Shown here piece by piece: positions 919-19,201 of a DNA stretch of 19,201 nt (positions within the stretch are counted from its first letter, which is position 1; every line of letters starts with the position of its first letter). The position numbers and the translations under genes were made by a program. Source of the stretch: Fidelibacterota bacterium (GTDB lineage: Bacteria; Marinisomatota; Marinisomatia; Marinisomatales; UBA1611); the NCBI GenBank assembly GCA_002718285.1, contig PBAR01000007.1, positions 107,973 to 127,173 of the forward strand. The letters are read 5' to 3'. The notes under the pieces were generated by a model. The model saw only the letters and a program-made list of their open reading frames with translations, was not told the DNA's origin and ran no database searches.

Positions 919-3900
919 TCATTCTGCGTATAAGGCTTTATTTACAATCAGCATAATATCAAATATATCAATGATGCCATCGATATTCATATCAGCTGAA
1001 AGAATCTGATCTGTATTAAACTCAGTATAACCTAATACATTGGCTACTGTCATTATAATATCTAAAACATTAACATTTTCATCTCCATTTAAATCGCCAA
1101 AATCTATATTCAATATTGGAAAAGCCCCAGCAGGGAAAATTATACGATCCAGCCAAATGCAATCATCTCCTGTACTCTGGGCCTGATCTTTATGGTATAC
1201 CCATTTGAATGAACGTTCACCCGCAGGAACATTAGATACATAATTATTCCAATCTGTATTGCCACCAACATAGATAACCATATCATTATCAATATAAAAT
1301 GCTAAGTAATCGTATAAATTTCCTGAAGCTCCTTGTTCTGTAGATGTTTTTGCAAAAAAAGAAATCACACCATCGTAAGGAATATTAAGATCCAATGATA
1401 ACTCTGTAGCCTGGCTATTTTCTATTATACCTGATTTCGCCGCATATAAACCAGAAAAGACCGTATCTTCTTGGATAGTCCATGGTGCTGCTATTTCACT
1501 ATTTTTCCAATCGAAGGCTTCAAAATTTCCTGATTCAAAATCTTCCATCAATAAGCCCATGCTAATAGAGACAGGTAAATAATATTCATAATTTGTATTT
1601 AAAGATCCGATAGCTAAATCTAGTATAGCTGTATAAGGGACAGGAGAATCTTCGCTAGCATTTATTTCTGAAGTAACTATAACCTGAGATCCAATATCCC
1701 ACCAAAAAGCATTATTGCTTTCAGTTGACCCCACACTTAGATAAGGATCATTGCTAAAAAGATTAAAAGTTGGATAGGTAAGTGGAGCATGACCTGAATT
1801 TTCCATTATTAGCTGAACAGTAACAGATTCCCCTGGGTCAAGTGCGGCATTATCACCGTCAAAAACGGTTATGGAGTTAATCTGATGATCTGGAGCATCC
1901 ACAAGTAGATTAATAAAAAATTCCCAGCTTAATTCACCAGAAGTTATTAACAAGATAAAATCAATAGCACTTTGATCTTCAACATTAAAGGAAACTTGAA
2001 ACTCAAAGGGACCAATAATTGTATCTGCTCCCGCTTCTAATGATTCAATAGTTAAGCTATCTATATTGAAAGCTACCAAATCATCATTATGCTGTAGAGA
2101 TACCAAAATATCATTGGAACTTTCTGCCCCTATATTCTCAAGGCCAATACTAAGATGACTTATCTGCCCAAAACCTAACCGTCCATTATTTCCTCCAGAA
2201 GTAATTGCCCAATCATCCATAACAATATAAGGTCCTGATGGTGCAATCACATCTAGAGAAGTTTCATACGGAAGAGAATTGTAAGCTGTCACAACCAAAT
2301 TTAATTGACCAGGAATTTCAACAGGTTCATCAAATACGATAGTGGCCACACCAGTCTCATCGCTATAAGCAGAGCCTAAAAGTATTCCATTTTTAGAAAT
2401 AGCTGCAAGCGCATCACTATTCCCAGTTTGAACTATAAATTCAGTTGATCCAACGATAATTATATTTTCATGACTGACAACTAGACCAGAAGGAACATTC
2501 GAACGAACGACTAAAGATGGATCACCGAAAATAGTCCAATAAAGGGTTTCCACATCTCCTGCTGATCCATAGTTATCATTCATATGCATACAACCATTGA
2601 AAGAAAGACCGCCAAAAGTCCGTTTTATGTTGTTCTCATAAGATTCAACAAAAATATCATTCATTTCATCTTGAGCATCCATTGGCGGGTTCCAGGCAGC
2701 ATTTACAGTGGAATTGAATGAAGCTACTGCTCCAGTAGGTTCACCCTGTGCAGTGGCCCTTAGCCAAGTCTCAGCAAAGCAAGTACCAATATGGAACTCT
2801 CCAGTTACGCAAGCTACCGTCCATATAAATGGTAGTTTACCTATATTAATTAATCCGTTAACATCAGTATTATTCATAGGGCATCCATTACCCCATGCTG
2901 AGTTGGTACCGTGTCCAGTATAATTAATGATAGATCGACCTTCATTAATAGCTGCTTCTCCATCATTGACAGTTCCAGAAGGATCATAGACCTGATCTAC
3001 TTCATCATAGTTGTAACCAAGTAGTTTTTGACGAATAATATCCATGTGCTCATTATCATATTCACCGTCATCCCCAGGCCCCTCATTGGAAGCAAACCCA
3101 GACCCTTTTCTATACCAATCACCAACGATATCAGGGTAACGTTCATAATTAATTGTACGAGACACCATGGTATTTACATGGCTTGTATCTTCGGCAGAAA
3201 AACGCCCAACAAAAATGTCAGGGTAATAATCATCACCAGCAATAAAACCGTAAGCTGGATCAGCTGGACTATTTGAGCCAGCACCTTCAGAAAATCGCAT
3301 TGATGGAATTTGATCAATATCACCAACTAAAAGTAGATATGTCAATCCTTGTTCATAGTAGTAACTTTCTACAAATTCATCAATATCATAGGCTGTTTGA
3401 CCAATAGAAGCAATATCTACCAATTCAGTTTTTATACCTTTTATATTTTTCCATTCCACCAACGGCTGCATAGCTTCCATGAATGGGCCATAACATATAA
3501 TTAACATTCTGCTACCTTCTTCAACTGGTTCATAGCGAATTGATGATTCAGTGAAGTTTAAAAAATGCTGATCATAAATATTTTTATATTCCCTAGTGAT
3601 ATTATTCACCAGAGAGCGTTGTACTAGAGGATTTATTACGCTTAATCCTCTTTCATAAATCCGTGTCTTTATCTGTGTATAGACTCTCATTATTTGGGTA
3701 ACTGGATTATATTGTAACGGTTGAAAAACAATTGCCTGACCTCGAACTGAACGGAGAATGTAAGGATCTCTTAAAAAAGCAATTTCTTGTGGAAAGAATA
3801 AATCCGTTTCATAAACCTTTCCATAAGTATAAGCAATTGAAGATGGTCTTACATTTCTAGTAATATTTCCTTTAGATGGAAGTAAACCTGATAATGGCAC

Positions 3901-4230
3901 ATCGATATAAGATACATCTGTGATCTCAAGTTCCATATTACTTAGGTCAGAAATAATTATTGATTTTGCAATACAAGGCAGGTCTGGTGACCCTTTTTCC
4001 AGTATGGGTGCACCTCCAGGAAAAGTAATCCGTGTTTCTCCTTTTTTTGCTAAATCAATGTAATATCCTGAAAGATTAAAAATAATTTTTATTTCATTAT
4101 TATTATATGATTCAATATTCCATACAGGCTCCGCTGGAACATCACTTCCTGTATCTATCCATTGCCAAGCCAAAAGAGGCGTAGAAAAAACAGTAACACT
4201 TATTATTATTTTTATATATTTTAAAATCAT
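919..4230 (-). CDS. Secreted gingipain-type cysteine peptidase (C25) with dockerin-like C-terminus
   Basis: An exported endopeptidase of 1103 residues. Residues 1-21 form a signal peptide ending in TPLLA. Residues about 25-235 match the C25 propeptide, including the GAPILEKGSPDLP segment. The peptidase domain spans about 240-575. It carries the catalytic histidine H440 in NYTGHG and the catalytic cysteine C474 in WTVACVTGEF. Ig-like or CARDB-like beta domains follow at about 580-890. A lectin/MAM-like beta-sandwich follows at about 895-1035. A dockerin-like pair of calcium-binding repeats sits at about 1044-1100 (GDLNGDENVNVLDI and ADMNIDGIIDIFDI). There is no recognisable type IX secretion tail, unlike gingipains of Porphyromonas. 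Gingipains cleave after Arg or Lys, and some degrade collagen, but specificity cannot be read here. It lies 110 bases behind the GT2 gene, with a possible promoter of its own at 4273-4301. Confidence 0.9.
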   Translation of the reverse strand: MILKYIKIIISVTVFSTPLLAWQWIDTGSDVPAEPVWNIESYNNNEIKIIFNLSGYYIDLAKKGETRITFPGGAPILEKGSPDLPCIAKSIIISDLSNMELEITDVSYIDVPLSGLLPSKGNITRNVRPSSIAYTYGKVYETDLFFPQEIAFLRDPYILRSVRGQAIVFQPLQYNPVTQIMRVYTQIKTRIYERGLSVINPLVQRSLVNNITREYKNIYDQHFLNFTESSIRYEPVEEGSRMLIICYGPFMEAMQPLVEWKNIKGIKTELVDIASIGQTAYDIDEFVESYYYEQGLTYLLLVGDIDQIPSMRFSEGAGSNSPADPAYGFIAGDDYYPDIFVGRFSAEDTSHVNTMVSRTINYERYPDIVGDWYRKGSGFASNEGPGDDGEYDNEHMDIIRQKLLGYNYDEVDQVYDPSGTVNDGEAAINEGRSIINYTGHGTNSAWGNGCPMNNTDVNGLINIGKLPFIWTVACVTGEFHIGTCFAETWLRATAQGEPTGAVASFNSTVNAAWNPPMDAQDEMNDIFVESYENNIKRTFGGLSFNGCMHMNDNYGSAGDVETLYWTIFGDPSLVVRSNVPSGLVVSHENIIIVGSTEFIVQTGNSDALAAISKNGILLGSAYSDETGVATIVFDEPVEIPGQLNLVVTAYNSLPYETSLDVIAPSGPYIVMDDWAITSGGNNGRLGFGQISHLSIGLENIGAESSNDILVSLQHNDDLVAFNIDSLTIESLEAGADTIIGPFEFQVSFNVEDQSAIDFILLITSGELSWEFFINLLVDAPDHQINSITVFDGDNAALDPGESVTVQLIMENSGHAPLTYPTFNLFSNDPYLSVGSTESNNAFWWDIGSQVIVTSEINASEDSPVPYTAILDLAIGSLNTNYEYYLPVSISMGLLMEDFESGNFEAFDWKNSEIAAPWTIQEDTVFSGLYAAKSGIIENSQATELSLDLNIPYDGVISFFAKTSTEQGASGNLYDYLAFYIDNDMVIYVGGNTDWNNYVSNVPAGERSFKWVYHKDQAQSTGDDCIWLDRIIFPAGAFPILNIDFGDLNGDENVNVLDIIMTVANVLGYTEFNTDQILSADMNIDGIIDIFDIMLIVNKALYAE

Positions 4231-4272
4231 TAGTCTCTAAAAAGTCTTTAATGTCTATTCAAAAATAAAACG

Positions 4273-4301
4273 TTTATGTTTATTGTTTGACTCACGGTCA
4301 A
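4273..4301 (-). promoter_or_regulatory. Candidate sigma-70-type promoter of the C25 peptidase
   Basis: On the minus strand TTGACC (plus 4296-4301) is followed after exactly 17 bases by CATAAA (plus 4273-4278). This leaves a leader of roughly 35-40 bases before the ATG at 4230. The -35 element overlaps a small inverted repeat, TTGAC-N5-GTCAA, that could be an operator. It lies in the 110-base gap after the GT2 gene, in which I see no terminator. Confidence 0.35.
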
Positions 4302-4340
4302 TAGACATAATTTTTTTATACAACCTAAATCTAAGACATT

Positions 4341-5165
4341 TCATATTAGAGTCCAATATTCAATCTTTTTTGTAATCTCATGAGCTAATCCAAAGCGTCT
4401 TCTTTTGATTAACCCTTTAAGGTAAATTTTTAATTTCTTAAGTAACATTTTTCTGGCTGAATTGGCCTGGCTGGAATTTAATTCTGTCGTTTTTAAAATC
4501 TTCTCGATACTTTGTATACGGTATTGCTCAATGCCTCCAGAAATCTTTGATAGCTGCCCTCTATGTCCACCATACTTATAGATTAAGGATTCATCTAAGA
4601 ATAAAATTGGGTGACGTGCAGCGATACGTAACCAAAGATCATAATCTTCGCATACAGGTAGTTTTTCATCAAAAAGTCCAATATCATCTAGAATAGATTT
4701 TTTCAAAAGTACTGATGAAGGAGAAATACGGCAAATATCCAAGCATTTTTCAAATATAAGGCCGCCGTATTTTTGGTGTTTTTTCCCTTGATTTATACGT
4801 ACACCATTTCGAATCCAAGTTTCATTCGTATGACAGAAGAAAGAATTTTGATTTACTTTTAAAGCATTTATCTGTCGCTCAAGTTTATTGGGAAGCCATT
4901 CATCATCTGAATCCAGTAAACCAATCCAGTCGCCTCTTGCAATTTTTATACCTGCATTGCGAGCAGAACTAACACCCAAGTTAGGTTGATATTTATACCG
5001 AATTCGAGGATAATTATTTAAAAGCCATTCCTTTGTATTATCTGTTGAACCATCATCAACTACAATAATCTCAAGTGGATCATACGTTTGATTAAATACA
5101 GAATTTATTGCTCTAGGAAGCATATTTTTTCTATTATAGGAAGGAATAATAATAGATATTCTCAA
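4341..5165 (-). CDS. Family 2 glycosyltransferase (GT-A fold)
   Basis: A 274-residue inverting GT2 enzyme that transfers a sugar from an NDP-sugar donor. The N-terminal strand ISIIIPSYNR starts at residue 3. VVDDGSTDN (about 35-43) is the nucleotide-binding motif, and LLDSDDEW (about 82-89) holds the metal-binding DxD. CEDYDLWLR (about 172-180) is the usual place of the catalytic acidic residue. The start is TTG at 5165. It leaves the first beta-strand complete, and the stop of the gene before lies only 11 bases upstream, so no longer start is possible without overlap. There are no membrane segments; the C-terminus is Lys/Arg-rich. Acceptor and sugar are unknown. A surface-glycan role is as likely as any tie to the neighbouring catabolic genes. 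Confidence 0.88.
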   Translation of the reverse strand: MRISIIIPSYNRKNMLPRAINSVFNQTYDPLEIIVVDDGSTDNTKEWLLNNYPRIRYKYQPNLGVSSARNAGIKIARGDWIGLLDSDDEWLPNKLERQINALKVNQNSFFCHTNETWIRNGVRINQGKKHQKYGGLIFEKCLDICRISPSSVLLKKSILDDIGLFDEKLPVCEDYDLWLRIAARHPILFLDESLIYKYGGHRGQLSKISGGIEQYRIQSIEKILKTTELNSSQANSARKMLLKKLKIYLKGLIKRRRFGLAHEITKKIEYWTLI

Positions 5166-5176
5166 TATAATATTAT

Positions 5177-6112
5177 TTATAGTTTTCCTAAAATAAGACT
5201 TGCTAGTGCATGATCCTGTATAGCATTTCCAACTGATTTAAATAATGTTATTTCACTTAAGCCATCTCTTCCTGCTAGTTTATTATCAGCGATCAGACCC
5301 AACTCTCCGTAAATATCTTTAAAATCCCATTGACCGCTCTTAGCTGGGATGATTAAGTCTCCAGCTTCTTCCTGACATGCATCTTTTTGGTCTACAACAA
5401 CTTTTGATTTCTTTATTGTTGAAGTCGGAATTTCACGCATATGAGGCTCAAAAGAACCTATTGCATTTATATGCACGCCAAGATTTATATGGTCATGATT
5501 AAACAGTGGTTTTTCTGATGGTGTTGCAGTACAAATTATATCTGCTTGATTTAACTGGGATAATTTTGAACATTCTGCATCAACTCCAAATATTTTGGAG
5601 ATCCATCGATGGAAAGATTCGGCATTCTTTTTGGTTCTACTGAAAATAAGAACATTAGTAATATTTCTAACAGCGAGAATTGACTCTACCTGAGTTTTTG
5701 CCTGTATACCTGTTCCAAAAATAGCCATTACCTTGGCTTCCTTTTTGGCCAATAAATCAGTAGCAAGTCCCGAAGCGGCACCAGTACGCAATGCAGTGAT
5801 AGCGCTTCCATCCATAGTTGCAACCAGGCTTCCTTTGAAAGCATCAAAGACCTCTACCACCGAATGGATTAAGGGTAAATTTTTTTTAAGGTTATCATAA
5901 TTTATGGAAACAATTTTTACCGTATAATATGGACTTCCAAATACGTAGGCAGGCATTACTAGCGCCGTTGCATTTTTATCTGGCATTTGAATATTTATTC
6001 TTTTAGGTACCGATACATCATTTCTGCTTAGCTTTATAAAAGCTGATCGCATAGAATTGATAGCTTCTCCCATGGTAATAATGGATCGAATCTTTTTCTC
6101 AGAAATAAACAT
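5177..6112 (-). CDS. Ornithine cyclodeaminase/mu-crystallin family; probable delta1-pyrroline-2-carboxylate reductase
   Basis: A 311-residue cytoplasmic NAD(P)H-dependent enzyme. K66 in YYTVKIVS and R109 in ALRTGAASG lie at the substrate-binding positions of the family. The Rossmann motif IFGTGIQAKTQ is at about 131-141. The family covers ornithine cyclodeaminase, alanine dehydrogenase and delta1-pyrroline-2-carboxylate (Pyr2C) reductase. I favour the last because a trans-3-hydroxyproline dehydratase, whose product becomes Pyr2C, lies three genes upstream; this pairing is known in other bacteria. It would return 3-hydroxyproline to L-proline. It sits 20 bases after the nucleotidyltransferase gene and 11 bases before the GT2 gene, and GGA stands 8 bases ahead of the ATG. 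Family call firm; substrate inferred from context. Confidence 0.82.
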   Translation of the reverse strand: MFISEKKIRSIITMGEAINSMRSAFIKLSRNDVSVPKRINIQMPDKNATALVMPAYVFGSPYYTVKIVSINYDNLKKNLPLIHSVVEVFDAFKGSLVATMDGSAITALRTGAASGLATDLLAKKEAKVMAIFGTGIQAKTQVESILAVRNITNVLIFSRTKKNAESFHRWISKIFGVDAECSKLSQLNQADIICTATPSEKPLFNHDHINLGVHINAIGSFEPHMREIPTSTIKKSKVVVDQKDACQEEAGDLIIPAKSGQWDFKDIYGELGLIADNKLAGRDGLSEITLFKSVGNAIQDHALASLILGKL

Positions 6113-6132
6113 ATTAAAAATCCAATATATTA

Positions 6133-7020
6133 TTAAAAAAGTCTTTCCGGATATATTCCTTTTTTAATCAACATTTGTATTTTTTTCAAAACAAATGCTC
6201 TATCTTTTTTATATGTTACACCAAACCAATCTGCACCACTTCTTAAAACATATACCTTCTCCTTACCAGAGCCTATCAAATTATTTATTACAGATGGGAT
6301 TAAGTATTCACTTTTCAATTCATTTCCATCCTGCTGGAGAAATTCTATAAACATAGATTTCAAATAAATAAATAATTCTGGTGTAAAACCCCATACATTC
6401 ATGGAGACTGGTTCATCACCATGCAATCGAATATTGCTCTTAGATGATATCCCTTTGGGCGTTTGTTTTATTTCTTCCGTTTCTATTACTGTATCTAAAA
6501 AGTCATCTTTTACTGAACATAATCCACGTGTGACTCCACCAAATTCAGATAATGTTTTATCCAACTGAAATGCGACCATAGAAAATCCACTACGCCCACT
6601 TTTATAAAAGTCTGCAATAACTTCAAATGATTCAAGGCCATAAAAATCATCACCATTAATTGCTACAAATGGTTCACGCATAAATTTAGAAGCTGTTAAA
6701 ATAGCATGCCCTGTTCCCCAAGGTTTTTCTCGTTTACTCGGGCAGATAAAACCATCGGGAAGATCATTTAGGTCTTGAAATGCAAATTCAACCTGAATTT
6801 TATCAGAATATTTATTAGTAATCTTCAATTTAAATTGATCTTCAAAATCCTTGCGAATAATAAAAACCACCTTATTAAACCCCGCTCGGATTGAATCGTA
6901 TACAGAATAATCAATAATAGTCTCTCCACACGGTCCAACTATATCCATCTGCTTAAGACCTCCATAACGGGATCCCATGCCAGCTGCCATAACTAGAAGA
7001 GTTAGATTATCCAATTTCAT
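6133..7020 (-). CDS. Sugar-phosphate nucleotidyltransferase-like protein (NTP_transferase)
   Basis: A 295-residue GT-A-fold enzyme. The N-terminal nucleotide-binding signature VMAAGMGSRYGGLKQ (about 10-24) differs from the common GxGTRLxPLT form in having SRYGGLKQ, typical of a subgroup of NDP-sugar pyrophosphorylases. PWGTGHAIL (about 100-108) and INGDDF (about 120-125) supply the usual base- and metal-binding contacts. The enzyme should join a sugar-1-phosphate to an NTP in the cytoplasm. Given the glycosidases nearby, galactose-, glucose- or N-acetylgalactosamine-1-phosphate are possible substrates, but the sequence does not decide. No sugar kinase of galactokinase type is present in the window. 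It begins a second gene block after a 106-base gap that shows no terminator. Confidence 0.75.
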   Translation of the reverse strand: MKLDNLTLLVMAAGMGSRYGGLKQMDIVGPCGETIIDYSVYDSIRAGFNKVVFIIRKDFEDQFKLKITNKYSDKIQVEFAFQDLNDLPDGFICPSKREKPWGTGHAILTASKFMREPFVAINGDDFYGLESFEVIADFYKSGRSGFSMVAFQLDKTLSEFGGVTRGLCSVKDDFLDTVIETEEIKQTPKGISSKSNIRLHGDEPVSMNVWGFTPELFIYLKSMFIEFLQQDGNELKSEYLIPSVINNLIGSGKEKVYVLRSGADWFGVTYKKDRAFVLKKIQMLIKKGIYPERLF

Positions 7021-7126
7021 CCTTTAATATTAAATATTATTTTGTTCTAAAAATTCTCGAAAATTATAAATATAAAATATTTTTATATAAATCACAGACA
7101 TCTAAAAAGGGGATATTAAAAAGGTG

Positions 7127-8488
7127 TTACAGGTCATCATTTAAACCAAAAATTGGTTTATTTTTCTTCCACTTTCCTCTTGTAAAATCAGGAATAGTTA
7201 CTGAAGAACTACCCAGTCTAATAGACTTTTCTGAAAGAGGAGATATAACGCTCAAACTGGCTGCATCATAGACATCAATAGGAGGTGAAACATTTCTTTT
7301 TACGGACTCAATGAAAGCTCTTAGAATAAAATAATCCATACCGCTATGGCCAGAGCCCAATGCGTTTTTTTCAAATCGTTTCCATAAGGAATGATCATAT
7401 TTTTCAAGGTAGCTTTCATCTGATTCCCAACGGTTTTTGTCAGGGCTTACTCCATCGATATAAATAGAGTGATTATCAACCATCCAAATTCCTTTGGTAC
7501 CCTGAACACGAAAATTGAGACTGTAAGGCCTTGGAGAATTGGTATCATGATTTAAAACAATGGTCTGACCATTAGCACATTTAATTACAGTAGTTATTAT
7601 ATCACCTAATTTAAAATTAATTTTAGAATTAGGATGATCTAAGCCACCATGCTGTTTAATATAATTTTTTAAGCCTCTACTTTGTGTTGAAGTAGAAGTG
7701 AGCGAAACCATACGATTTCCTCGATTTATATTGAGCATTGTACTGATAGGTCCTAGACCGTGGGTAGGATAAAGATCACCGTTACGGTCTATTGAATGCT
7801 GTGTACGCCATTTTGATTCAGAATAACCTTTTTCACCAAACTCTACCCCACCGCCATATGGTTTGATACCATCATTGAATTTCACTTCACGAAGATCATG
7901 TTGATAGCCTCCATGGCAATGTAGCAGTTCACCAAATATACCTTGGCGAACCATATTCAAAATTGCCATGACATCTCTACGGTAACAAACATTTTCCATA
8001 ATCATGCAATAGCGATTAGTCATCTCAGAAGTTTTTACCAGATCCCAGCAATCCTTGATCGTAAGCGCTGCTGGGATTTCGGTGCCAACATGTTTACCAT
8101 TAGTCATGGCAGCAACAGACATCGGATGGTGCCATTCCCAAGGTGTTGCTATATAAACAGCATCCATATCTTCATAGGAAACCATATTGCGGAAATCTTC
8201 GTTTCCATTTTGATAAACTATTGGCTCTGCTTTTCCAGCATCTTTAAGAATTTTCAGGGCTATAGAAATCATATCCTGATTAATATCACAAATTGCCGGG
8301 ATTTTTACTTCGGGGTATTTTGCGGCCAAGGAAAGCACCCATTGGCCTCGTAAACCAGTACCAATAAATCCCAACCTTACATCTTTTTTTTGACTGGAAA
8401 ATGCAAATAAATCCCCTGGCATTAAGGCTGAAGTGGCACCTAGGGTTAAAGTTTTAATAAAGTCTCTTCTATTTGTTTTATTATTCAT
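7127..8488 (-). CDS. GH109-type NAD-dependent glycosidase (alpha-N-acetylgalactosaminidase-like), Tat-exported
   Basis: A 453-residue member of the Gfo/Idh/MocA fold. The N-terminus has a twin-arginine signal (NRRDFIKTL, then a hydrophobic stretch to about 30), so it should be exported folded with NAD bound. The Rossmann motif is GFIGTGLRG (about 40-48). ATPWEWHHP, ENVCYRRDVMAILNMVR, GGYQHDLR, YPTHGLGP and a C-terminal PLSEKS all match, from memory, the Elizabethkingia GH109 alpha-N-acetylgalactosaminidase. Y240 and H243 in YPTHG fall at its proposed catalytic residues. GH109 enzymes hydrolyse by transient oxidation at C3 on NAD, without net redox change. The known substrate is alpha-GalNAc on animal glycoproteins. 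The start is 9 bases after the dehydratase stop, with GTGGGG upstream as a fair ribosome site. Exact sugar specificity uncertain. Confidence 0.85.
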   Translation of the reverse strand: MNNKTNRRDFIKTLTLGATSALMPGDLFAFSSQKKDVRLGFIGTGLRGQWVLSLAAKYPEVKIPAICDINQDMISIALKILKDAGKAEPIVYQNGNEDFRNMVSYEDMDAVYIATPWEWHHPMSVAAMTNGKHVGTEIPAALTIKDCWDLVKTSEMTNRYCMIMENVCYRRDVMAILNMVRQGIFGELLHCHGGYQHDLREVKFNDGIKPYGGGVEFGEKGYSESKWRTQHSIDRNGDLYPTHGLGPISTMLNINRGNRMVSLTSTSTQSRGLKNYIKQHGGLDHPNSKINFKLGDIITTVIKCANGQTIVLNHDTNSPRPYSLNFRVQGTKGIWMVDNHSIYIDGVSPDKNRWESDESYLEKYDHSLWKRFEKNALGSGHSGMDYFILRAFIESVKRNVSPPIDVYDAASLSVISPLSEKSIRLGSSSVTIPDFTRGKWKKNKPIFGLNDDL

Positions 8489-8497
8489 TTTACCCCA

Positions 8498-9535
8498 CTA
8501 TTTTAGCAAGAAACCGCTCTGAAGAGGATCATTAGGATCTAACCAAAATCTATGACTGCCAGTAATAAATGCATTACCGCTAACCTTGGATACAACAGCG
8601 TTATAATTCCCAAATTTAGTAGAAGCAATCAATTTCACAGTAAAGGTAGACCCTATAATACTTTCAATTTTAATACTCTCTCCAATTTTTAGATCGCCTT
8701 TGGCATGCATAATAGCAGCGCGCGCGCTAACACCTGTTCCTGTAGGGCTCCGGTCAACCTGTCCATTTGCAAAAATACAAACATTTCGGCTATGGTTTTC
8801 CCTGTTTAGAGCTTCTCCAGTAAAAATAGTTCCGTAGATGAAATTCATTTCTGGATCATTAGGATGCTTCATCTTAACAGATCTGGATATTGATTCTTTG
8901 ATTTTCATCCCTGCATCAATTAACTGGTTTAGATATTTTGAATCACATTTAAGTCCTAACTGGGCAACATCTACAAAAACATAAAATGCACCACCATAGG
9001 CAAGGTCATAACGAAGAATACCTAATTCCGGTACATTTATTTCATGATCAATTAACTGTACAAAGGAGGGAACATTCTGAAAACCTACACTTCGAATTTT
9101 ACCATTATCTAATTCAGCATAGGCTCGCACAAATCCCGATGGTACATCCATTTTTACTTCAGTTATCGGTTCATTTTTACTAATTAATCCAGTTTCAACA
9201 ACGACCTTAGTCAAGGCAATTACTGCATGACCACAACCTGTGGAATATCCATTGTTATGAATAAAAACAACTCCAAAATCTGCATCATGACTATCTGGCT
9301 CCACAATAATTGCGCCATACATATCTGTATGCCCCCTCGGCTCCCACATAAGGGCTTTACGGATTTTATCAAAGTGACTTCTGGCATCTATACGCTTTTC
9401 TTGAATCGTATTACCCGACAGCCTAGGAAAGCCTGATAAAATAATTCTTAATGGTTCTCCACCAGTATGAACATCAATAGTATGTATTTCTATCCATTCC
9501 TTTGGAGGACACCAATCTTTTAATTTTTCAATCAT
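8498..9535 (-). CDS. trans-3-hydroxy-L-proline dehydratase (proline racemase family)
   Basis: A 345-residue cytoplasmic enzyme of the proline racemase fold. True racemases and 4-hydroxyproline epimerases use two cysteines, one in each half. Here the first is kept (C101 in STGCGHA), while the second is threonine (T265 in DRSPTGTG). This Cys/Thr pair is the mark of trans-3-hydroxy-L-proline dehydratase (human L3HYPDH, EC 4.2.1.77), which removes water to give delta2-pyrroline-2-carboxylate, in equilibrium with delta1-pyrroline-2-carboxylate. The early HTGGEP motif (residues 23-28) is also family-typical. A mu-crystallin-family reductase for the product lies three genes downstream at 5177-6112. 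There is no signal peptide, and the length is normal. It is 63 bases from the GH63 gene and 9 from the GH109 gene. Free trans-3-hydroxyproline comes chiefly from collagen. Confidence 0.88.
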   Translation of the reverse strand: MIEKLKDWCPPKEWIEIHTIDVHTGGEPLRIILSGFPRLSGNTIQEKRIDARSHFDKIRKALMWEPRGHTDMYGAIIVEPDSHDADFGVVFIHNNGYSTGCGHAVIALTKVVVETGLISKNEPITEVKMDVPSGFVRAYAELDNGKIRSVGFQNVPSFVQLIDHEINVPELGILRYDLAYGGAFYVFVDVAQLGLKCDSKYLNQLIDAGMKIKESISRSVKMKHPNDPEMNFIYGTIFTGEALNRENHSRNVCIFANGQVDRSPTGTGVSARAAIMHAKGDLKIGESIKIESIIGSTFTVKLIASTKFGNYNAVVSKVSGNAFITGSHRFWLDPNDPLQSGFLLK

Positions 9536-9598
9536 AATATTAAAAAGACCATAAATTAAGAAATTATTTAAACCCCCAAATTATTATATAAAAAACTA

Positions 9599-11527
9599 TT
9601 AATACATAGGTGTTTCTGGTTTAGGAAGATATCCATATTCTATGAATGCCATTATTCCAAATAGAGCACCCCATGAATGAAATCGATCAGAAGATAATCT
9701 TGAGTCATCTCCAGTTCCAGTTATTGCAGAGTAATTCTCACTTACATATCCCTTCCGATCCCATTCTTTCATAATCAGTTTTAAAGATTTATCAGAAAGC
9801 TCCTTTGCAGCATCTGTGTAACCTGCATTCCTAAGACTGAGATATGTAAGAAAATTTAGTGGTGGCCAAATAGCTCCTCTCCAATATCGTTGATCTTTGA
9901 AAGTTGGATCATTACGGGATGTAGACGGTAACATCCAGTCACCATAAAATTCTTGCGGATTATAAAAATGACTTAAAATCTTAGCCTGTTGTTTTTGTGT
10001 CCCAATACAAGCAAGCAACGGATAAAATAGTGTCGGTGAAATTCGTTTTGAAAGTGAATCCACATCTGTTCGATAATTTAAATACGAACCAAATTCATCA
10101 CTCCAGAGTGTTTCTAAATTAATGGTGTAGTCATTGATTCTCCCTTCTAATTCTTTTTTTTCTTTTTCTCTATTTAGGATAACTGCTATTTCCAATAAAG
10201 CTTTGCAATCTGCAATATACAAACTATTTAAACCTACATCTTGAAGTTCTAGAGTATGTTTTTTTTTATTAAATGGCACATCAATATACATTGGTGAATC
10301 ATCCATTCCTGATTCATAACCAGCAGCTGTTTTTGTTTCAAAAACAGGCTCGTTAAATGGGTTATCAGCTGGTGAAGAACCGTAGCTTAATAAGCCTTCA
10401 TTATTTCTGGCATTATTCCACCATCGATTCCATCCAATAAGATCATCAAAAACAGCTTCTAAAAACCATTCTTCAGGATGTGTTTTATATATTTCTTTTA
10501 CCATTATACTACCTACGGGTGGTTGAGATCTGTCGAACGATTTACTCCCATTTCCACGGTTATCATTAGGAATAAATCCTTTTTTTGTTTTACCATGAAG
10601 ATGCTCAATAACATTAGCAAATGCTAGATCACGACTTGAAAGCCCAGTCATATAAGCTAGAAAAAAATTATCCCAACCAAAAGTGCAAAAACCACCATAT
10701 TCTTCATTCCAAAGTCGTCCTACTGTAGATACTATTCGATCAAATTTAGGCTCATAGATAAGGTTCCATGCGATACCTGCCTGTATAGCAATATATTCTT
10801 CAGCTAGATCACCAAATTTTTCCGCTTCATTTTGTAGCGAAATTTTCTGTTTATTTATAGCAAGTTTTATTTCATGAATTGTACGTTTTTCCCCAGTTGA
10901 AATACCAATTTCACCATCGAGCCATACAGATAAATAAGGAGTTTTTACATTTACATATGGGTCATCATCAACCAATTTTGATGTAGTATAAACATTTATA
11001 TTTTTTCCTGGACATTTTGCTTTTAAATAGTTTTTCGATTTGGAAAGACTACCTGGACGGTTCCAAAGCATCCCCGACTCAATTATCACTTTTATCCTAT
11101 CTTTAGGTATTGAATAAGGTGATATCAGGATTATTAAATCTTTACCAATATGTGCCGATTCAATTTTTGCGTCTAACCCCTCCCATTGTATATCCAACTT
11201 TGTGTATGACCCATTGTATGTGTGAGGGCCAGGACGAATAGTCTCGTTTTTTTCGCCACGTCTTCCAATTAAAGCATGAGATAAATATTTTTCTTCTAAA
11301 AAATAATGTTGTTTAAATGCAATATTAATAGTAAAAGCTTCTGGTAATAGAACATGTTGAAGAACGCTTCTAGTGTCCCAGGTATTCCACCCCTGCTTTA
11401 AATCCTTCTGTATTGCTTGATATTGTATAAATTGATGACCGTTTTGTTGACACAGACCAATAGATCTATATAAAAAAACAGTTAGTAAGAATAACAAGTA
11501 TCCTTGATTTTTAAACAAATTGTGCAT
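9599..11527 (-). CDS. GH63-type alpha-glucosidase-like hydrolase, exported
   Basis: A 642-residue clan GH-G (alpha/alpha)6-barrel enzyme. Residues about 8-26 are a signal peptide. The cysteine at 26 does not sit in a proper lipobox. An N-terminal beta-sandwich covers about 35-225 and the catalytic barrel about 235-635. FGWDNFF (283-289), ESGMDDSP with the catalytic acid D409, YWRGAIWPP (548-556) and SENYSAITG with the likely base E597 are GH63 hallmarks. Eukaryotic GH63 removes the terminal alpha-1,2-glucose from N-glycans. Glycosynthase work on E. coli YgjK of this family, as I recall it, pointed to Glc-alpha-1,2-Gal as a favoured motif. That is the disaccharide on collagen hydroxylysine. 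Trehalase or mannosylglycerate hydrolase are less likely alternatives in the same clan. It follows the symporter gene by 21 bases. Confidence 0.82.
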   Translation of the reverse strand: MHNLFKNQGYLLFLLTVFLYRSIGLCQQNGHQFIQYQAIQKDLKQGWNTWDTRSVLQHVLLPEAFTINIAFKQHYFLEEKYLSHALIGRRGEKNETIRPGPHTYNGSYTKLDIQWEGLDAKIESAHIGKDLIILISPYSIPKDRIKVIIESGMLWNRPGSLSKSKNYLKAKCPGKNINVYTTSKLVDDDPYVNVKTPYLSVWLDGEIGISTGEKRTIHEIKLAINKQKISLQNEAEKFGDLAEEYIAIQAGIAWNLIYEPKFDRIVSTVGRLWNEEYGGFCTFGWDNFFLAYMTGLSSRDLAFANVIEHLHGKTKKGFIPNDNRGNGSKSFDRSQPPVGSIMVKEIYKTHPEEWFLEAVFDDLIGWNRWWNNARNNEGLLSYGSSPADNPFNEPVFETKTAAGYESGMDDSPMYIDVPFNKKKHTLELQDVGLNSLYIADCKALLEIAVILNREKEKKELEGRINDYTINLETLWSDEFGSYLNYRTDVDSLSKRISPTLFYPLLACIGTQKQQAKILSHFYNPQEFYGDWMLPSTSRNDPTFKDQRYWRGAIWPPLNFLTYLSLRNAGYTDAAKELSDKSLKLIMKEWDRKGYVSENYSAITGTGDDSRLSSDRFHSWGALFGIMAFIEYGYLPKPETPMY

Positions 11528-11548
11528 AGCCCTATAAAAAATATTAGT

Positions 11549-13176
11549 TTATTTTGAAGCCCATGTTAAAAAGATATAAATAAATACAGTAATCCCTATA
11601 ATAATGAATGAAGCATTTTTTGCGTGGCGCCAAGGTGTCATATCCACAGGTGAAGGATCTCTTTGATCACTTTTTTTAATTTCATCTGCTGTTTTTGGAT
11701 TTATCTCTCCAATAATAATCATTATAATAATTGCTGAAATGAAACTAATAAAATAACCATGTAACCAGTGTAATTCACCGCTCCCATTTGATAGAAAGAG
11801 GGGGACATTCTTAAAATTGATAAATGTAAAAAAAGAATAAAAAAGCATTCCTGCCAGCATACCTATCTTAGCAGCAATTGCAGGAATATGTTTTGTTGTG
11901 ATACCTAATAAAAAGATGCCAATAATTGGAACACTATATAGTCCATTTACTTTTTGTAAATATTCAAAAATAGATTGCATCTGCGCGAGTTTTGGAGCAA
12001 TAACCATTGAAATACCAGCTAGAAATATGCCAAAAATTTTTCCAGCTCTTACGATTTCTTCTCCATCTGCTTCTTTACGTATATAGCCTTTATAAAATTG
12101 CAATGAAAATAAAGTTGAAGCACTATTTAATGCACTATTAAATGAACTTAATATTGATCCCATCAACACCGCAGCAAATAGTCCTATAGACCAATCTGGC
12201 AATACATGACGAACTATAACACCATATACCTGATCTTGTTTTTCTATATTAAGGTCACTCATATGCAAAGCAATAATACCAGGCAAACAAAGCATCATTG
12301 GGCCAATCAGTTTCATTAAGGAAGCAAATAGTACACCTTTTTGACCTTCTGCAAGACTTTGGGCAGCTATTGCACGTTGCACAATTACCTGGTTTGTGGA
12401 CCAATAAAATATTTGGATAAACATCATACCACTAAGAAGAGTAGGCCATGGAACAGAAACAACATTTTCATCAATATTTGTCTGAGCAAGAACAGCAAGG
12501 TACTGCGGATTTTGTAAACCAAGAACTGAAATCCCTTTTAAAAACGAACCTTCACCTATTTCTAACAAACCTAAAAACGGGATTGCAAGCCCTCCGACTA
12601 ACAATCCAATTCCATTAATTGTATCGCTTACTGCTACAGATTTTAGCCCTCCAATAATAGCATAGGAACTACCCATTACACCAATCATAATCACAATTAT
12701 CCATAAGGGAATATTGATGTCAAACATTCCTTTAAGAGCCAAAGATCCAGTATACAATACAACTGGAAGTAAAACAGTCACATAGCCAAAAAGAAAAAGT
12801 CCGGAGACCATAGAACGAGTCATTTTGTCAAACCGTTTTTCCAGGAAAGCAGGTGTAGTTGTGTATCCACTTGCCAGATAGGTTGGTAAAAATAAAAGTG
12901 CAGTGGCTATCATAGCAAAAGCTGCCAGTGCTTCCCAGGCAATTCCTACTAGTGCCTTATCACCGAACACAGTACCATTTAGACCTACCAACTGCTCAGT
13001 TGAAAGATTGGTTAAAAGTAAAGAGCCTCCTACTACAGGCCAAGTCAACGCCCTGCCACCAGTAAAATATTCTACCGATGCATCCTTTGATTTCTTCATT
13101 TTACCTACAATATAAATTGTAGTTAAAGCAACAATTCCTGTAGCTACAACAAAGGAAAGAATCGATATTATATTCA

Positions 13177-13177
<1 letters not shown>
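11549..13177 (-). CDS. Sodium:sugar symporter of the SSS/SGLT family
   Basis: A 542-residue inner-membrane protein with roughly 14 hydrophobic helices. It resembles Vibrio vSGLT along its length. N57, E61 and Q62 in TNLSTEQL match vSGLT galactose-site residues N64, E68 and Q69. Y258 in FYWSTNQ matches the gating tyrosine, K289 in ASLMKLI matches K294, and S344-S345 in GSILSSFNSALNSAS match the sodium-site serines. The asparagine at vSGLT 260 is glutamine here (Q255). The likely cargo is galactose or glucose freed outside the inner membrane by the flanking glycosidases. Its ATG overlaps the stop of the beta-galactosidase gene by one base (TAATG), so the two are probably translationally coupled. 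Other SSS members carry proline or other solutes, so cargo is not certain. Confidence 0.87.
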
Positions 13178-16365
<3,188 letters not shown>

Positions 16366-16370
16366 TTAGT

Positions 16371-17666
16371 TTAATCTATCTCGGTAATAATAGAGTCTAA
16401 TGTTTCAACAAGAAAATCAGCATTTTGCTGATTGAATGCAAGAGGAGGTTTGATTTTAATCACATTATGATCTGGCCCATCAGTACTGAGCAATATGCCT
16501 TTATCTTTCATTTTATTGATCACAAGATTTGCTTCTCTTCCAGCTGGTTGTAAATTTTTGGAATTTTTGTTGAGTTCTATACCAATAAAGAGACCCCGAC
16601 CACGTACATCACCAATCAAGCTATGCTTTCTCTTCAGATTTTGGAACCGATTAATCAAATAATCTCCAACCTCTAATGCTCGTTTTTGAAGTTCTTCCTT
16701 CTGGATTATTTGTAAGACAGCCCTGCCTACTGAACAAGAGACCGGATTTCCACCAAATGAATTAAAATATTCCATTCCATTATTAAAGCTGTCAGCAATT
16801 TCTTTAGTAGTGATTACCGCTGAGATAGGGTGACCATTTCCCATAGATTTTCCTACTGTAACTATATCTGGAACCGCCCCTTCAGATTCAAAGCCCCAAA
16901 AATGGCTACCCATACGACCAAATCCAATCTGAATTTCATCAGCTATACAAAGACCGCCAGCCTGGCGAACCTGCGCAAAAGCATCTGCTAAAAACCCTTT
17001 TGGAAAAACAATCTGTCCACCACAACCCATTATAGCTTCTGTGATAATAGCGCCAAGGCGCTTACCATTTTTTTTCAAGGATGTAAGAATTTTTGACAAT
17101 TCAGATAAATATCCGTTTGCTGCCTTAGAGCCACGATGTTTTCCACGAAATGGATCTGGCATAGGGACAGTATGAACAAAATTCATTGCACCTTTGCCAC
17201 CAGGGCCATCGAATTTATAGGGACTTATCTCAATAAGGGCTTCCGTGTGACCATGGTAGGCTCCATTCAACACAATTGTTTCTTTACTGCTGGTAAAATG
17301 GCGCGCAATCCGTAAGGCAAGATCATTAGATTCACTACCAGAATTGGTAAAATAACAAATTTCTAACTGTTCTGGAAGGAGTGAAGTCAATTCAATAGCA
17401 TATTTTACAATTATTTCATCCAAATAGCGTGTATTTGTATTTAACTTGCCAAATTGTTCTCTAGCAGCCCTTACAACTTCTGGATGGCAGTGGCCAACAT
17501 GCTGTATATTGTTTACTCCGTCAAGGTATTCTTTTCCTTTATTATCATAAAGATATTGTCCAGATCCGCGAACAATATGTAATGGGTTATCATAAGAAAT
17601 GCTAAGAGATGGAGCCAGATGCTTTTGACGTCCTTCAATAATTAGTTTATCAGTTAACAAATTCAT
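16371..17666 (-). CDS. PLP-dependent phospho-lyase (ETNPPL/PHYKPL type; probable 5-phosphohydroxylysine phospho-lyase)
   Basis: A 431-residue class III aminotransferase-fold enzyme of the cytoplasm. FTNSGSESND (106-115) binds the PLP phosphate, D243 in IADEIQIGFGR pairs with the pyridine nitrogen, and K273 in VGKSMGNGHP is the PLP lysine. GK-(P/S)-(M/I)-GNGHP, with FGGNPVSC and LLSTDGP near the end, marks the animal ETNPPL/PHYKPL group. These enzymes do not transaminate. They eliminate phosphate and ammonia, from phosphoethanolamine (giving acetaldehyde) or from 5-phosphohydroxy-L-lysine (giving 2-aminoadipate 6-semialdehyde). The collagen-like context favours the second. Its start overlaps the kinase gene by 17 bases, with GGAGAG upstream as ribosome site, so the two proteins are probably made together. 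Confidence 0.88.
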   Translation of the reverse strand: MNLLTDKLIIEGRQKHLAPSLSISYDNPLHIVRGSGQYLYDNKGKEYLDGVNNIQHVGHCHPEVVRAAREQFGKLNTNTRYLDEIIVKYAIELTSLLPEQLEICYFTNSGSESNDLALRIARHFTSSKETIVLNGAYHGHTEALIEISPYKFDGPGGKGAMNFVHTVPMPDPFRGKHRGSKAANGYLSELSKILTSLKKNGKRLGAIITEAIMGCGGQIVFPKGFLADAFAQVRQAGGLCIADEIQIGFGRMGSHFWGFESEGAVPDIVTVGKSMGNGHPISAVITTKEIADSFNNGMEYFNSFGGNPVSCSVGRAVLQIIQKEELQKRALEVGDYLINRFQNLKRKHSLIGDVRGRGLFIGIELNKNSKNLQPAGREANLVINKMKDKGILLSTDGPDHNVIKIKPPLAFNQQNADFLVETLDSIITEID

Positions 17667-18666
17667 AAAGGCTCTCCGAAATTTCTTTTAGATCTTTTTG
17701 GTTCATAGATCTTAAAAATTTCCAAGCGCTTGATTCAGATATGGTTATATACTTGTTTTCAGAAAATAATTTTTTTCTATAAGAAGCCATAGTGACAGAA
17801 ATTGATAATCTTAAACAGACGAGATAGATAGTGAATTTTAGTTCCTTTTCTGAAAGTTGAAAAAATTCATGATAACCTTTTAAAATTTGTCCCATAGAAT
17901 TTAATGGATCATCTGAATCAATAGCTACATATGCCATGGCTACTGCAGGTTCTGCGACCTGATAAGAATAACCCATATCACCAAAATCGATAATACCAAT
18001 TTTATCATCCAAATCATCGATTAAAATATTATGATCATTTCCATCATTATGGATCACAGCAAATCGAATATCTCTCTTATGTTGCTCAAAATATTTATGA
18101 GCTTCATAAAGGAACCGCTGTACTATTTCCCTATCTTGGCCTGAATCCAACTCTTTACTAAAATTCTTAAGGAAATTATGTTGGGATAGATTCCATGCAA
18201 ATTTTCTTTTTACTGCAGGATGGTTAAAACCGTGCATAGCACTATCCAGTCTGGCCATAAAACTTCCAAGAAAAAACAGCATATCTTTGTTTTGATGATG
18301 ATCTTTCAAAAAAATACCTTTTATAAATGTAACCATACGGATATAATAATCATTGCCATCTATATTATGAGTGATAATATGATTGCCGGTGGAAGATTTT
18401 ATTGTAAAAGGTATATTTAAATTTGGGTCTTGTTGCTGAATATGATTAGTACAATCAATTTGCATCTGAATACTAGATATATCTTCAACCGGGTTTGAAA
18501 TCTTTAATACATATTTTTTATTATTTTCAGCAACAATATAAAAATTTTGATCACGCTCACTGTATAGTTCATCAGCTAAGCAACGAATACCGTAATGGCT
18601 ATACACCAGATCAGATGCTTCTGCTATGGAAAAATTAGGCTGGGCTACATTAAATACTGATCGCAT
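17650..18666 (-). CDS. APH-fold kinase, hydroxylysine-kinase type
   Basis: A 338-residue cytoplasmic kinase of the aminoglycoside/choline kinase fold. K55 in KYVLKI is the likely nucleotide-anchoring lysine. HNDGNDHNIL (206-215) is the catalytic loop, with D208 as base and N213 for metal. IIDFGDMGYSY (225-235) is the metal-binding DFG-like motif. NDHNIL and DFGDM-x-Y are typical of the HYKK group; human HYKK phosphorylates 5-hydroxy-L-lysine with GTP. The next gene encodes the matching phospho-lyase and overlaps this one by 17 bases, which supports a two-step kinase/lyase route. Ethanolamine is the alternative substrate. The ATG at 18666 has no good Shine-Dalgarno site. The gene follows a terminator after about 150 bases and so probably opens the operon. 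Confidence 0.83.
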   Translation of the reverse strand: MRSVFNVAQPNFSIAEASDLVYSHYGIRCLADELYSERDQNFYIVAENNKKYVLKISNPVEDISSIQMQIDCTNHIQQQDPNLNIPFTIKSSTGNHIITHNIDGNDYYIRMVTFIKGIFLKDHHQNKDMLFFLGSFMARLDSAMHGFNHPAVKRKFAWNLSQHNFLKNFSKELDSGQDREIVQRFLYEAHKYFEQHKRDIRFAVIHNDGNDHNILIDDLDDKIGIIDFGDMGYSYQVAEPAVAMAYVAIDSDDPLNSMGQILKGYHEFFQLSEKELKFTIYLVCLRLSISVTMASYRKKLFSENKYITISESSAWKFLRSMNQKDLKEISESLYEFVN

Positions 18667-18881: not shown

Positions 18882-19201
18882 TTAATTCATCTGAGTTCTA
18901 TTGCCAAGGGTACCAACATCAGCATTGTCACCAGTCTGTGTACCTTTATTGTATTGCCAGTAGTAACGATCATTATTATTTCGTTGATGTACAATTTGGT
19001 TATATTCATTAAATATCCACTCACCATCTGTATCAACGTCAGAATTGCTTGTAGCTGTCGTATATCCTTCTGGTTTTTTTGACAAGGCATCAAATGGATT
19101 TGTCGGCCAACTACGGCGACCATTTTCCATCAACTGCTCTGTAGCATAAGACTCCAGACCTGCTTTAATACTGGCAATCACTGCATCTTCTGCCGCTGCT
19201 T
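18882..19201 (-). CDS. Type IV pilin / pseudopilin-like protein, C-terminal part (5' end outside window)
   Basis: The minus-strand frame is open to the window edge and gives the last 105 residues. The visible start, AAAEDAVIASIKAGLESYAT, looks like the amphipathic end of the long N-terminal pilin helix. After it come WPTNPFDAL, DTDGEWIFNEYN and the HQRNN-x-R-YYW segment, typical of the small beta-sheet head of bacterial type IV pilins and type II secretion pseudopilins. An internal GTG at 19181 could be mistaken for a start, but the coding frame clearly continues upstream. The prepilin cleavage site and hydrophobic N-terminus are beyond the window. A strong terminator follows, so it is the last gene of its unit and unrelated to the operon downstream. 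Confidence 0.78.
   Translation of the reverse strand, partial: AAAEDAVIASIKAGLESYATEQLMENGRRSWPTNPFDALSKKPEGYTTATSNSDVDTDGEWIFNEYNQIVHQRNNNDRYYWQYNKGTQTGDNADVGTLGNRTQMN

Follow-up and report, generated by a model that had tools for sequence, protein, structure and literature searches.

A candidate bacterial operon class for the salvage of collagen's modified residues in Marinimicrobia

Within a 19,201-nucleotide stretch of contig PBAR01000007.1 from a Fidelibacterota (Marinimicrobia) bacterium, hereafter the window, we found a compact run of minus-strand genes whose probable role is to recover the glycosides of hydroxylysine, along with 3-hydroxyproline, from collagen-like proteins of animals. 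The reading builds on gene content, protein families, two catalytic residues and several motifs, synteny and co-occurrence, from which we infer every substrate, localisation and step order. Collagen salvage had been put forward in a preliminary description of this DNA, and it gained support from the structural match of a GH63-like protein to E. coli YgjK, from another GH63 protein whose gene overlaps that of a fused kinase-lyase (locus L154), from HypD genes beside GH63-GH2 pairs in two other phyla, and from 4-hydroxyproline epimerase genes in six genomes carrying the operon.

In the proposed scheme, exported glycosidases would trim Glc-alpha-1,2-Gal-beta-O-hydroxylysine, with the GH63-like enzyme removing the glucose and a GH2 enzyme the galactose, and an SGLT-like symporter would take up the hexose. 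In the cytosol, a kinase (KIN) would phosphorylate 5-hydroxylysine, and a phospho-lyase (PLP) would cleave 5-phosphohydroxylysine to 2-aminoadipate semialdehyde, ammonia and phosphate, a reaction of the human enzymes; a genome-encoded ALDH7-type dehydrogenase could take the semialdehyde further. A 3-hydroxyproline dehydratase (T3HYPD) and the OCD reductase would together return trans-3-hydroxyproline to proline. The second half of the operon in relatives (GFO, SSS2, GALK and NTP) may process another sugar, perhaps N-acetylgalactosamine (GalNAc).

Going further, we lean towards viewing the locus as a member of an operon class for collagen's modified residues, built from a galactosyl-hydroxylysine module (KIN-PLP-GH2), exchangeable glycosidases for the outer sugar (GH63, GH29, GH109) and hydroxyproline enzymes. 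Such a class would occur across Marinimicrobia, with other lineages having put together their own versions around HypD or a fused KIN-PLP, and it would constitute an undescribed route for glycosylated hydroxylysine, with GH63 as the counterpart of the GH65 collagen glucosidase.

Gene content of the locus

Nine intact open reading frames (ORFs) in the ORF list of the window run nearly end to end on the minus strand (18666-5177). In the order of transcription they are KIN, PLP, GH2, SSS, GH63-like, T3HYPD, GFO, NTP and OCD, followed by GT2 and a C25 peptidase gene, and their coordinates give successive junctions of a 17-nt overlap, 8 nt, a 1-nt overlap, 21, 63, 9, 106 and 20 nt. Because this order is kept in other species, we regard the run as more than a chance arrangement.

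17650..18666, minus strand: KIN, APH-fold kinase of the HYKK (hydroxylysine kinase) type (APH 2.2e-17; NF004799; motifs)
16371..17666, minus strand: PLP, class-III aminotransferase fold, ammoniophospholyase (ETNPPL/PHYKPL) type (Aminotran_3; PDB 6tor, 5g4i)
13177..16362, minus strand: GH2 beta-galactosidase, LacZ type (NF052611)
11549..13177, minus strand: SSS symporter, SGLT/vSGLT-like (PRK10484; 2xq2/3dh4)
9599..11527, minus strand: GH63-like putative alpha-glucosidase (MGH1-like/GH63 domain; Foldseek to YgjK)
8498..9535, minus strand: T3HYPD, 3-hydroxyproline dehydratase type, Pro_racemase family (best model NF045511; PDB 6r76; motifs)
7127..8488, minus strand: GFO, GH109-like Gfo/Idh/MocA protein (PF21252 4.1e-90; PDB 2ixa)
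6133..7020, minus strand: NTP, sugar-1-phosphate nucleotidyltransferase-like (PF00483 4.2e-09)
5177..6112, minus strand: OCD, Delta1-pyrroline-2-carboxylate (Pyr2C) reductase-like (PF02423 5.9e-62; PDB 6t3e)

The preliminary description had proposed a tightly packed gene run here, and its genes are intact minus-strand ORFs at just these coordinates. Profile and PDB matches bear out its family calls (kinase, lyase, GH2, SGLT-like carrier, GH63, 3-hydroxyproline dehydratase and Pyr2C reductase-like protein), and the identities of the GH109-like (8488-7127) and nucleotidyltransferase-like (7020-6133) genes go beyond it.

Kinase and phospho-lyase

The best NCBIfam model for KIN was the kinase part of NF004799 (PRK06148), at 255 bits, the cut-off of 1128 applying to the whole fusion. 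The motifs HxDxxxxN and DFGD can be read in its sequence, and its closest named relative was the Marinimicrobia protein P0008 (63%). PLP matched best, among PDB entries, human ethanolamine-phosphate phospho-lyase (ETNPPL; 6tor, 497 bits) and next the phospholyase 5g4i (317 bits), and the alignment shows its lysine segment to be kept (VGKSMGNGHP vs MGKPMGNGHP). An APH-fold kinase and a class-III ammoniophospholyase are encoded together here, as expected of a HYKK/PHYKPL pair, and KIN adjoins or is fused to PLP in most relatives that have KIN; it is lacking beside PLP in L134, L234 and L236. The substrates of the pair would be 5-hydroxylysine and its phosphate, not ethanolamine. In L166, the lyase gene (L166:8170-9471) is split into two pieces by an in-frame TAG.

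Ethanolamine salvage would have KIN form phosphoethanolamine and PLP release acetaldehyde, ammonia and phosphate, with the glycosidases serving an unrelated or a glycolipid/glycosylphosphatidylinositol-type substrate. Among the solved structures compared, which included no hydroxylysine enzyme, PLP is indeed closest to the ethanolamine-phosphate lyase, KIN has a weak Pfam match to Choline_kinase (3.2e-4), and three genomes with PLP-GH2 lack KIN. The operon neighbours that were scanned, however, included no ethanolamine-pathway family (unlabelled neighbours lay outside the scan), and the KIN/PLP pair is tied instead to genes for a beta-galactosidase, T3HYPD and Xaa-Pro peptidases. We consider ethanolamine salvage unlikely.

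Conservation across Marinimicrobia

The preliminary description had named conserved co-occurrence in related genomes as a check, which we ran on 199 Marinimicrobia genomes (genomes are given as G numbers and loci as L numbers). Matches were found in 43 genomes for KIN (1e-20), 39 for PLP (1e-70), 45 for GH2 (1e-100), 135 for ALDH7 (1e-100) and nine for 4-hydroxyproline epimerase (1e-80). T3HYPD matched in 33 genomes at 1e-40 and in 25 at 1e-100, and the latter set was used, leaving out weaker matches (8/33 genomes, including the short similar fragments of G118 and G176). Sorting by hand on frame length and score, we obtained a class of 26 genomes in which KIN, PLP or both are genes of their own with higher scores; the short, low-scoring KIN genomes G060, G076, G125, G142 and G156 were grouped with the fused ones.

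GH2 followed PLP directly in 20 of these 26 genomes, and did not in three (G146, G154, G195); in the other three (G001, G138, G171) the loci are cut by contig ends. Of the 20, 16 have KIN as the gene immediately preceding PLP; in G190 the contig ends at that point.

GH2 directly after PLP: G030, G055, G079, G111, G113, G121, G124, G131, G136, G147, G151, G160, G165, G168, G175, G177, G186, G190, G199, G201

Both GH2 (21 genomes vs 5.9 expected, p 1e-11) and T3HYPD (15 vs 3.3 expected, p 1e-9) were enriched in the 26, in Fisher tests that ignore kinship and assembly gaps. The remaining 21 genomes with KIN, in which the gene is fused, cut or scores low, showed no enrichment of GH2 (4 vs 4.7 expected, p 0.75) and a small, non-significant excess of T3HYPD (5 vs 2.6 expected, p 0.10); in two of them, G075 and G161, T3HYPD adjoins an SSS symporter gene on another contig (L240, L143). 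Eighteen genomes have both T3HYPD and PLP, and in 7 of them the two are no more than 10 kb apart. Six of the nine genomes with 4-hydroxyproline epimerase belong to the 26 (1.2 expected, p 1.8e-4), and two of these six proteins were scanned, both scoring above the NF010578 cut-off. As far as their contigs reach, the epimerase loci L223-L228 also carry DHDPS-, ALDH- and/or DAO-like genes.

The fullest relatives, L131 and L132, read KIN-PLP-GH2-SSS-T3HYPD-GFO-SSS2-GALK-NTP-GT2, and variants of this order include BNR in L129 and L130, GH29 in L135, and OCD in L134, which is without KIN. Outside the sample, G003 carries KIN-PLP-GH2 at L237 and GH63 on a separate piece of contig (L006). In 12 of 17 KIN-PLP-GH2 loci (L129-L133, L146, L147, L168, L230-L232, L237), KIN has an Xaa-Pro aminopeptidase-type gene upstream of it. 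Between it and KIN, a flavin amine oxidase gene, whose substrate is possibly related to lysine or hydroxylysine, occurs in L129, L146, L147, L168, L231 and L237.

The neighbours of the fused KIN-PLP genes (L150-L162), judged mostly by eye from first residues, look unrelated except in L154 and L162; the fused gene of L149 was not recovered by the ORF caller. In L162, a semialdehyde dehydrogenase-like gene adjoins the fusion. In L154 (G086, Marinimicrobia; L154:6902-11955), the fusion shares 4 nt with a gene whose 674-aa product has YgjK_N and MGH1-like/GH63 domains. The kinase-lyase pair is here linked with another GH63 protein, distinct from that of the window.

Glycosidases and sugar genes

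The GH2 protein scored 1107 bits against an NCBIfam equivalog cut-off of 999 (NF052611) and begins with a segment that is hydrophobic by eye. The symporter lies above the cut-off of its model (PRK10484, 590 bits vs 401), matches the vSGLT entries 2xq2 and 3dh4 at 192 and 187 bits, and has identical residues at the positions aligned with vSGLT Gln69, Glu88, Asn260, Lys294 and Gln428, which we take to be galactose contacts in the numbering of that protein. The GH63-like protein has a signal-like N-terminal segment (by eye), and the general acid and base expected of a GH63 fold are present, Asp409 and Glu597 aligning with YgjK Asp501 and Glu727. In a Foldseek search with its model, ranks 1-8 were all E. 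coli YgjK entries, among them 3w7w holding Glc-alpha-1,2-Gal, a match that is no more than suggestive of the predicted alpha-1,2-glucosidase specificity. Glc-alpha-1,2-Gal is, according to the accessible text of PMC8626586, the disaccharide on collagen hydroxylysine.

The best PDB match of GFO was the alpha-N-acetylgalactosaminidase 2ixa (510 bits), to whose closeness it owes its GH109-like label and its putative activity as an alpha-N-acetylgalactosaminidase; it carries a twin-arginine (Tat)-like signal by eye. NTP occurs in the same operon stretch in L129-L134, L137 and L239. A GH29 alpha-L-fucosidase with a PA14 domain (two proteins scanned) sits in or beside the GH63 slot in L135, L137, L139 and L011. 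A GH65 collagen glucosidase was considered for this slot in relatives and rejected, the slot gene being GH29; no genome-wide GH65 search was made. A GH1-family gene follows KIN-PLP-GH2 in G003 (L237:15138-16553), and a GH88-family gene follows T3HYPD in G055 (L137:4193-5380).

Such genes would suit a locus for animal glycoproteins in general, mucin-like ones included, in which GH2, GH63/GH29, GH109, BNR, a galactokinase-like kinase and the nucleotidyltransferase would harvest galactose, fucose and GalNAc, the amino-acid genes being ordinary catabolism. The GH109-like protein near 2ixa, the GH29, BNR and GHMP kinase genes of relatives, and the GH88- and GH1-family genes of L137 and L237 all speak for it. 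Mucin nevertheless leaves the most conserved junction, PLP-GH2, mostly with KIN, unexplained, and against it also stand the HypD genes adjoining GH63-GH2 in two other phyla and the YgjK-type gene overlapping KIN-PLP in L154. Such a general glycoprotein locus seems to us improbable.

Hydroxyproline enzymes and the collagen source

T3HYPD matched best, in the PDB, entry 6r76 (464 bits), listed there as proline racemase. It has the Cys/Thr pair and not Cys/Cys, since its GYSTGCGH and DRSPTGTG segments align with 6r76, where proline racemase has DRSPCGTG; the Cys/Thr pair marks trans-3-hydroxyproline dehydratases, as stated in the accessible part of PMC4364671. The best PDB match of OCD was the Delta1-pyrroline-2-carboxylate reductase 6t3e (211 bits). 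OCD and T3HYPD are paired in genomes, being adjacent in L136, L138, L140, L141 and L142 and two genes apart in the window. The ALDH7 query lies above the NCBIfam cut-off of NF050084 (L-piperidine-6-carboxylate dehydrogenase), and ALDH7 was found in 23 of the 26 separate-gene genomes. As a marker to tell hydroxylysine from ethanolamine use, ALDH7 was tried and rejected as too common (135/199 genomes).

The hydroxylysine might also come from a non-animal protein, since derivatives of it occur in diatom cell-wall proteins and the named records of phylum members are marine. The joint presence of genes for a beta-galactosidase and for both 3-hydroxyproline and 4-hydroxyproline use points to collagen instead, and a source such as diatom cell walls appears very improbable.

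GH63 loci in other lineages

Scanning genome contigs with the single KIN protein returned no relative, and a scan with a GH63 alignment, used instead, gave 63 loci. The nearest, L001, L011 and L006, have named records from Marinimicrobia. We read the neighbourhoods of the best 37 of the 63, the remainder being weaker GH63 matches, and found a GH2 relative in 15, adjoining GH63 on the same strand in 10; the other 22 of these 37, some of them short contigs, had none, a weak match in L021 (23%) being left uncounted. The GH63-GH2 pair adjoins genes for HypD and its activase in L026 (Cloacimonadota), where the order is Xaa-Pro peptidase, activase, HypD, GH63, GH2, galactokinase-like gene, and in L034 (Acidobacteria), where the order is activase, HypD, GH2, GH63; HypD scored 1203.7 and 1210.3 bits, respectively, vs a cut-off of 1100 (NF043068). 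In L022 (Sulfidibacter corallicola), GH63 is followed by galT, a galactokinase-like gene and GH2. A single run in L005 holds GH63 and an Xaa-Pro aminopeptidase-type gene, with glycine-cleavage P-protein genes (GDC-P; GcvP2_C; 3215-6190) between the two; glycine makes up a third of collagen.

For co-occurrence with KIN, the 37 stronger GH63 loci were used except L025, L029 and L033, which left 34. KIN was present in 25 of these 34 genomes, always accompanied by PLP sequence on that stretch, and in 22 of the 25 it lay in frames of at least 738 residues, away from GH63. In Gemmatimonadota, KIN occurred in 88 of 200 genomes and GH63 in eight of 200, and all eight had KIN (p 0.0012, kinship ignored). 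GH63 or GH63-GH2 loci L007, L013-L020, L024, L027, L028, L036 and L037 come from records whose names are presumably those of sponge metagenome bins.

Surroundings of the operon

Three further features lie around the nine genes.

4341..5165, minus strand: GT2 glycosyltransferase, end of the run (PF00535 9.1e-41; same place in L131-L134)
919-4230, minus strand: downstream gene for a gingipain-like C25 peptidase that has a propeptide and a dockerin domain (Pfam scan)
18882-19199, minus strand: partial ORF upstream of KIN, pilin-like by eye (no Pfam match)

The C25 peptidase (919-4230) is a protease and could feed the locus. Positions 1-918 of the window are AT-rich and hold no listed ORF of at least 100 aa (GC 0.235 over 1-1000). 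Genes resembling type IV pilus or type II secretion system (T2SS) assembly genes by eye lie close to GH2 in L239 and, in five further loci (L164, L165, L167, L236, L241), upstream of KIN or PLP; the L164 gene, the sole one of these scanned, is T2SSF. A genomic site beside pilus/T2SS-like genes may be shared among relatives.

Discussion

Several findings weigh against collagen salvage. The preliminary description had expected the gene set to be kept together, which held for the KIN-PLP-GH2 core and less well for the rest: the window-type GH63 occurs in 1/199 phylum genomes (1e-40), T3HYPD is absent from 11/26 separate-gene genomes, and KIN is missing both upstream and genome-wide (1e-20) in three PLP-GH2 genomes (G136, G151, G186). 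The GH63 slot holds GH29 in L135, L137 and L139 and neither of the two in 12 loci (L129-L134, L163, L166, L232, L233, L239, L240), and L239 has GH2, T3HYPD and OCD without KIN or PLP. In G175, PLP contains an in-frame stop. Members of the phylum also share descent. Directly upstream of KIN, two loci carry MurQ (N-acetylmuramic acid (MurNAc)-6-phosphate etherase) and an AGCS-type amino-acid carrier (L163:10339-12624, L166:10539-12790), the etherase of L163 scoring above its NCBIfam cut-off. A diet that extends to other glycoproteins or glycans is suggested by the GH109, GH29, GH88, GH1 and BNR genes, and ALDH7, in 135/199 genomes, says little.

The preliminary calls of a 3-hydroxyproline dehydratase and a Pyr2C reductase stand by best match, motif and PDB entry but fall below the NCBIfam cut-offs. 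T3HYPD reached 384 bits with its best model (TransHydProDhtase, NF045511) vs an equivalog cut-off of 540, and OCD 233 vs 322 bits (NF004793) and 305 vs 417 bits (NF006379). T3HYPD is accordingly typed as a probable dehydratase by best match and motif, not as a curated family member. The L154 link and the three genomes without KIN pull opposite ways, and we left our estimate for collagen salvage unchanged.

Every enzyme family in the locus is already known. In the literature searched, which comprised titles and abstract openings and left most subscription papers outside, we found no description of a bacterial locus of this kind. If the substrates are as proposed, the locus would provide a genetic handle on the microbial recycling of collagen's glycosylated hydroxylysine and genes that mark marine collagen turnover. 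It would also supply an enzyme set to analyse or trim the glycans of collagen, and hydroxylysine kinase and lyase of bacterial origin could be studied from it.

Comparison with known systems

The human hydroxylysine pathway, reportedly described by Veiga-da-Cunha in 2012, consists of HYKK and PHYKPL. The window pair belongs by type to the same two enzyme families, its genes being adjacent here and fused in many other bacteria, and it differs in that glycosidase genes and one for a hydroxyproline enzyme share its operon and in that its substrate is putative. For 3-hydroxyproline, the T3LHypD and Pyr2C reductase cluster of Thermococcus litoralis represents the same two-enzyme trans-3-hydroxyproline route, and the best PDB matches in the window, 6r76 and 6t3e, are presumably T. 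litoralis proteins. The conversion of trans-3-hydroxyproline to proline is outlined in the accessible text of PMC4364671 and PMC4113996; the former, as far as that text goes, reports the T. litoralis cluster and mentions no hydroxylysine or glycosidase genes. HypD, the trans-4-hydroxyproline dehydratase whose gene adjoins GH63-GH2 in L026 and L034, acts on 4-hydroxyproline and is absent from the window.

Among the glycosidases, E. coli YgjK (GH63) shares with the GH63-like protein the fold and both catalytic residues, at 12-16% identity in structure alignments, whereas its YgjK_N domain has no match in the window protein and is present in that of L154. GH63 belongs to a clan other than GH-L, the clan of GH65. 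The glucosidases known to act in this context, human PGGHG and the bacterial alpha-1,2-glucosidase FjGH65A, are both GH65 enzymes of clan GH-L in the accessible account of PMC8626586, and the candidate glucosidase of the window differs from them by family.

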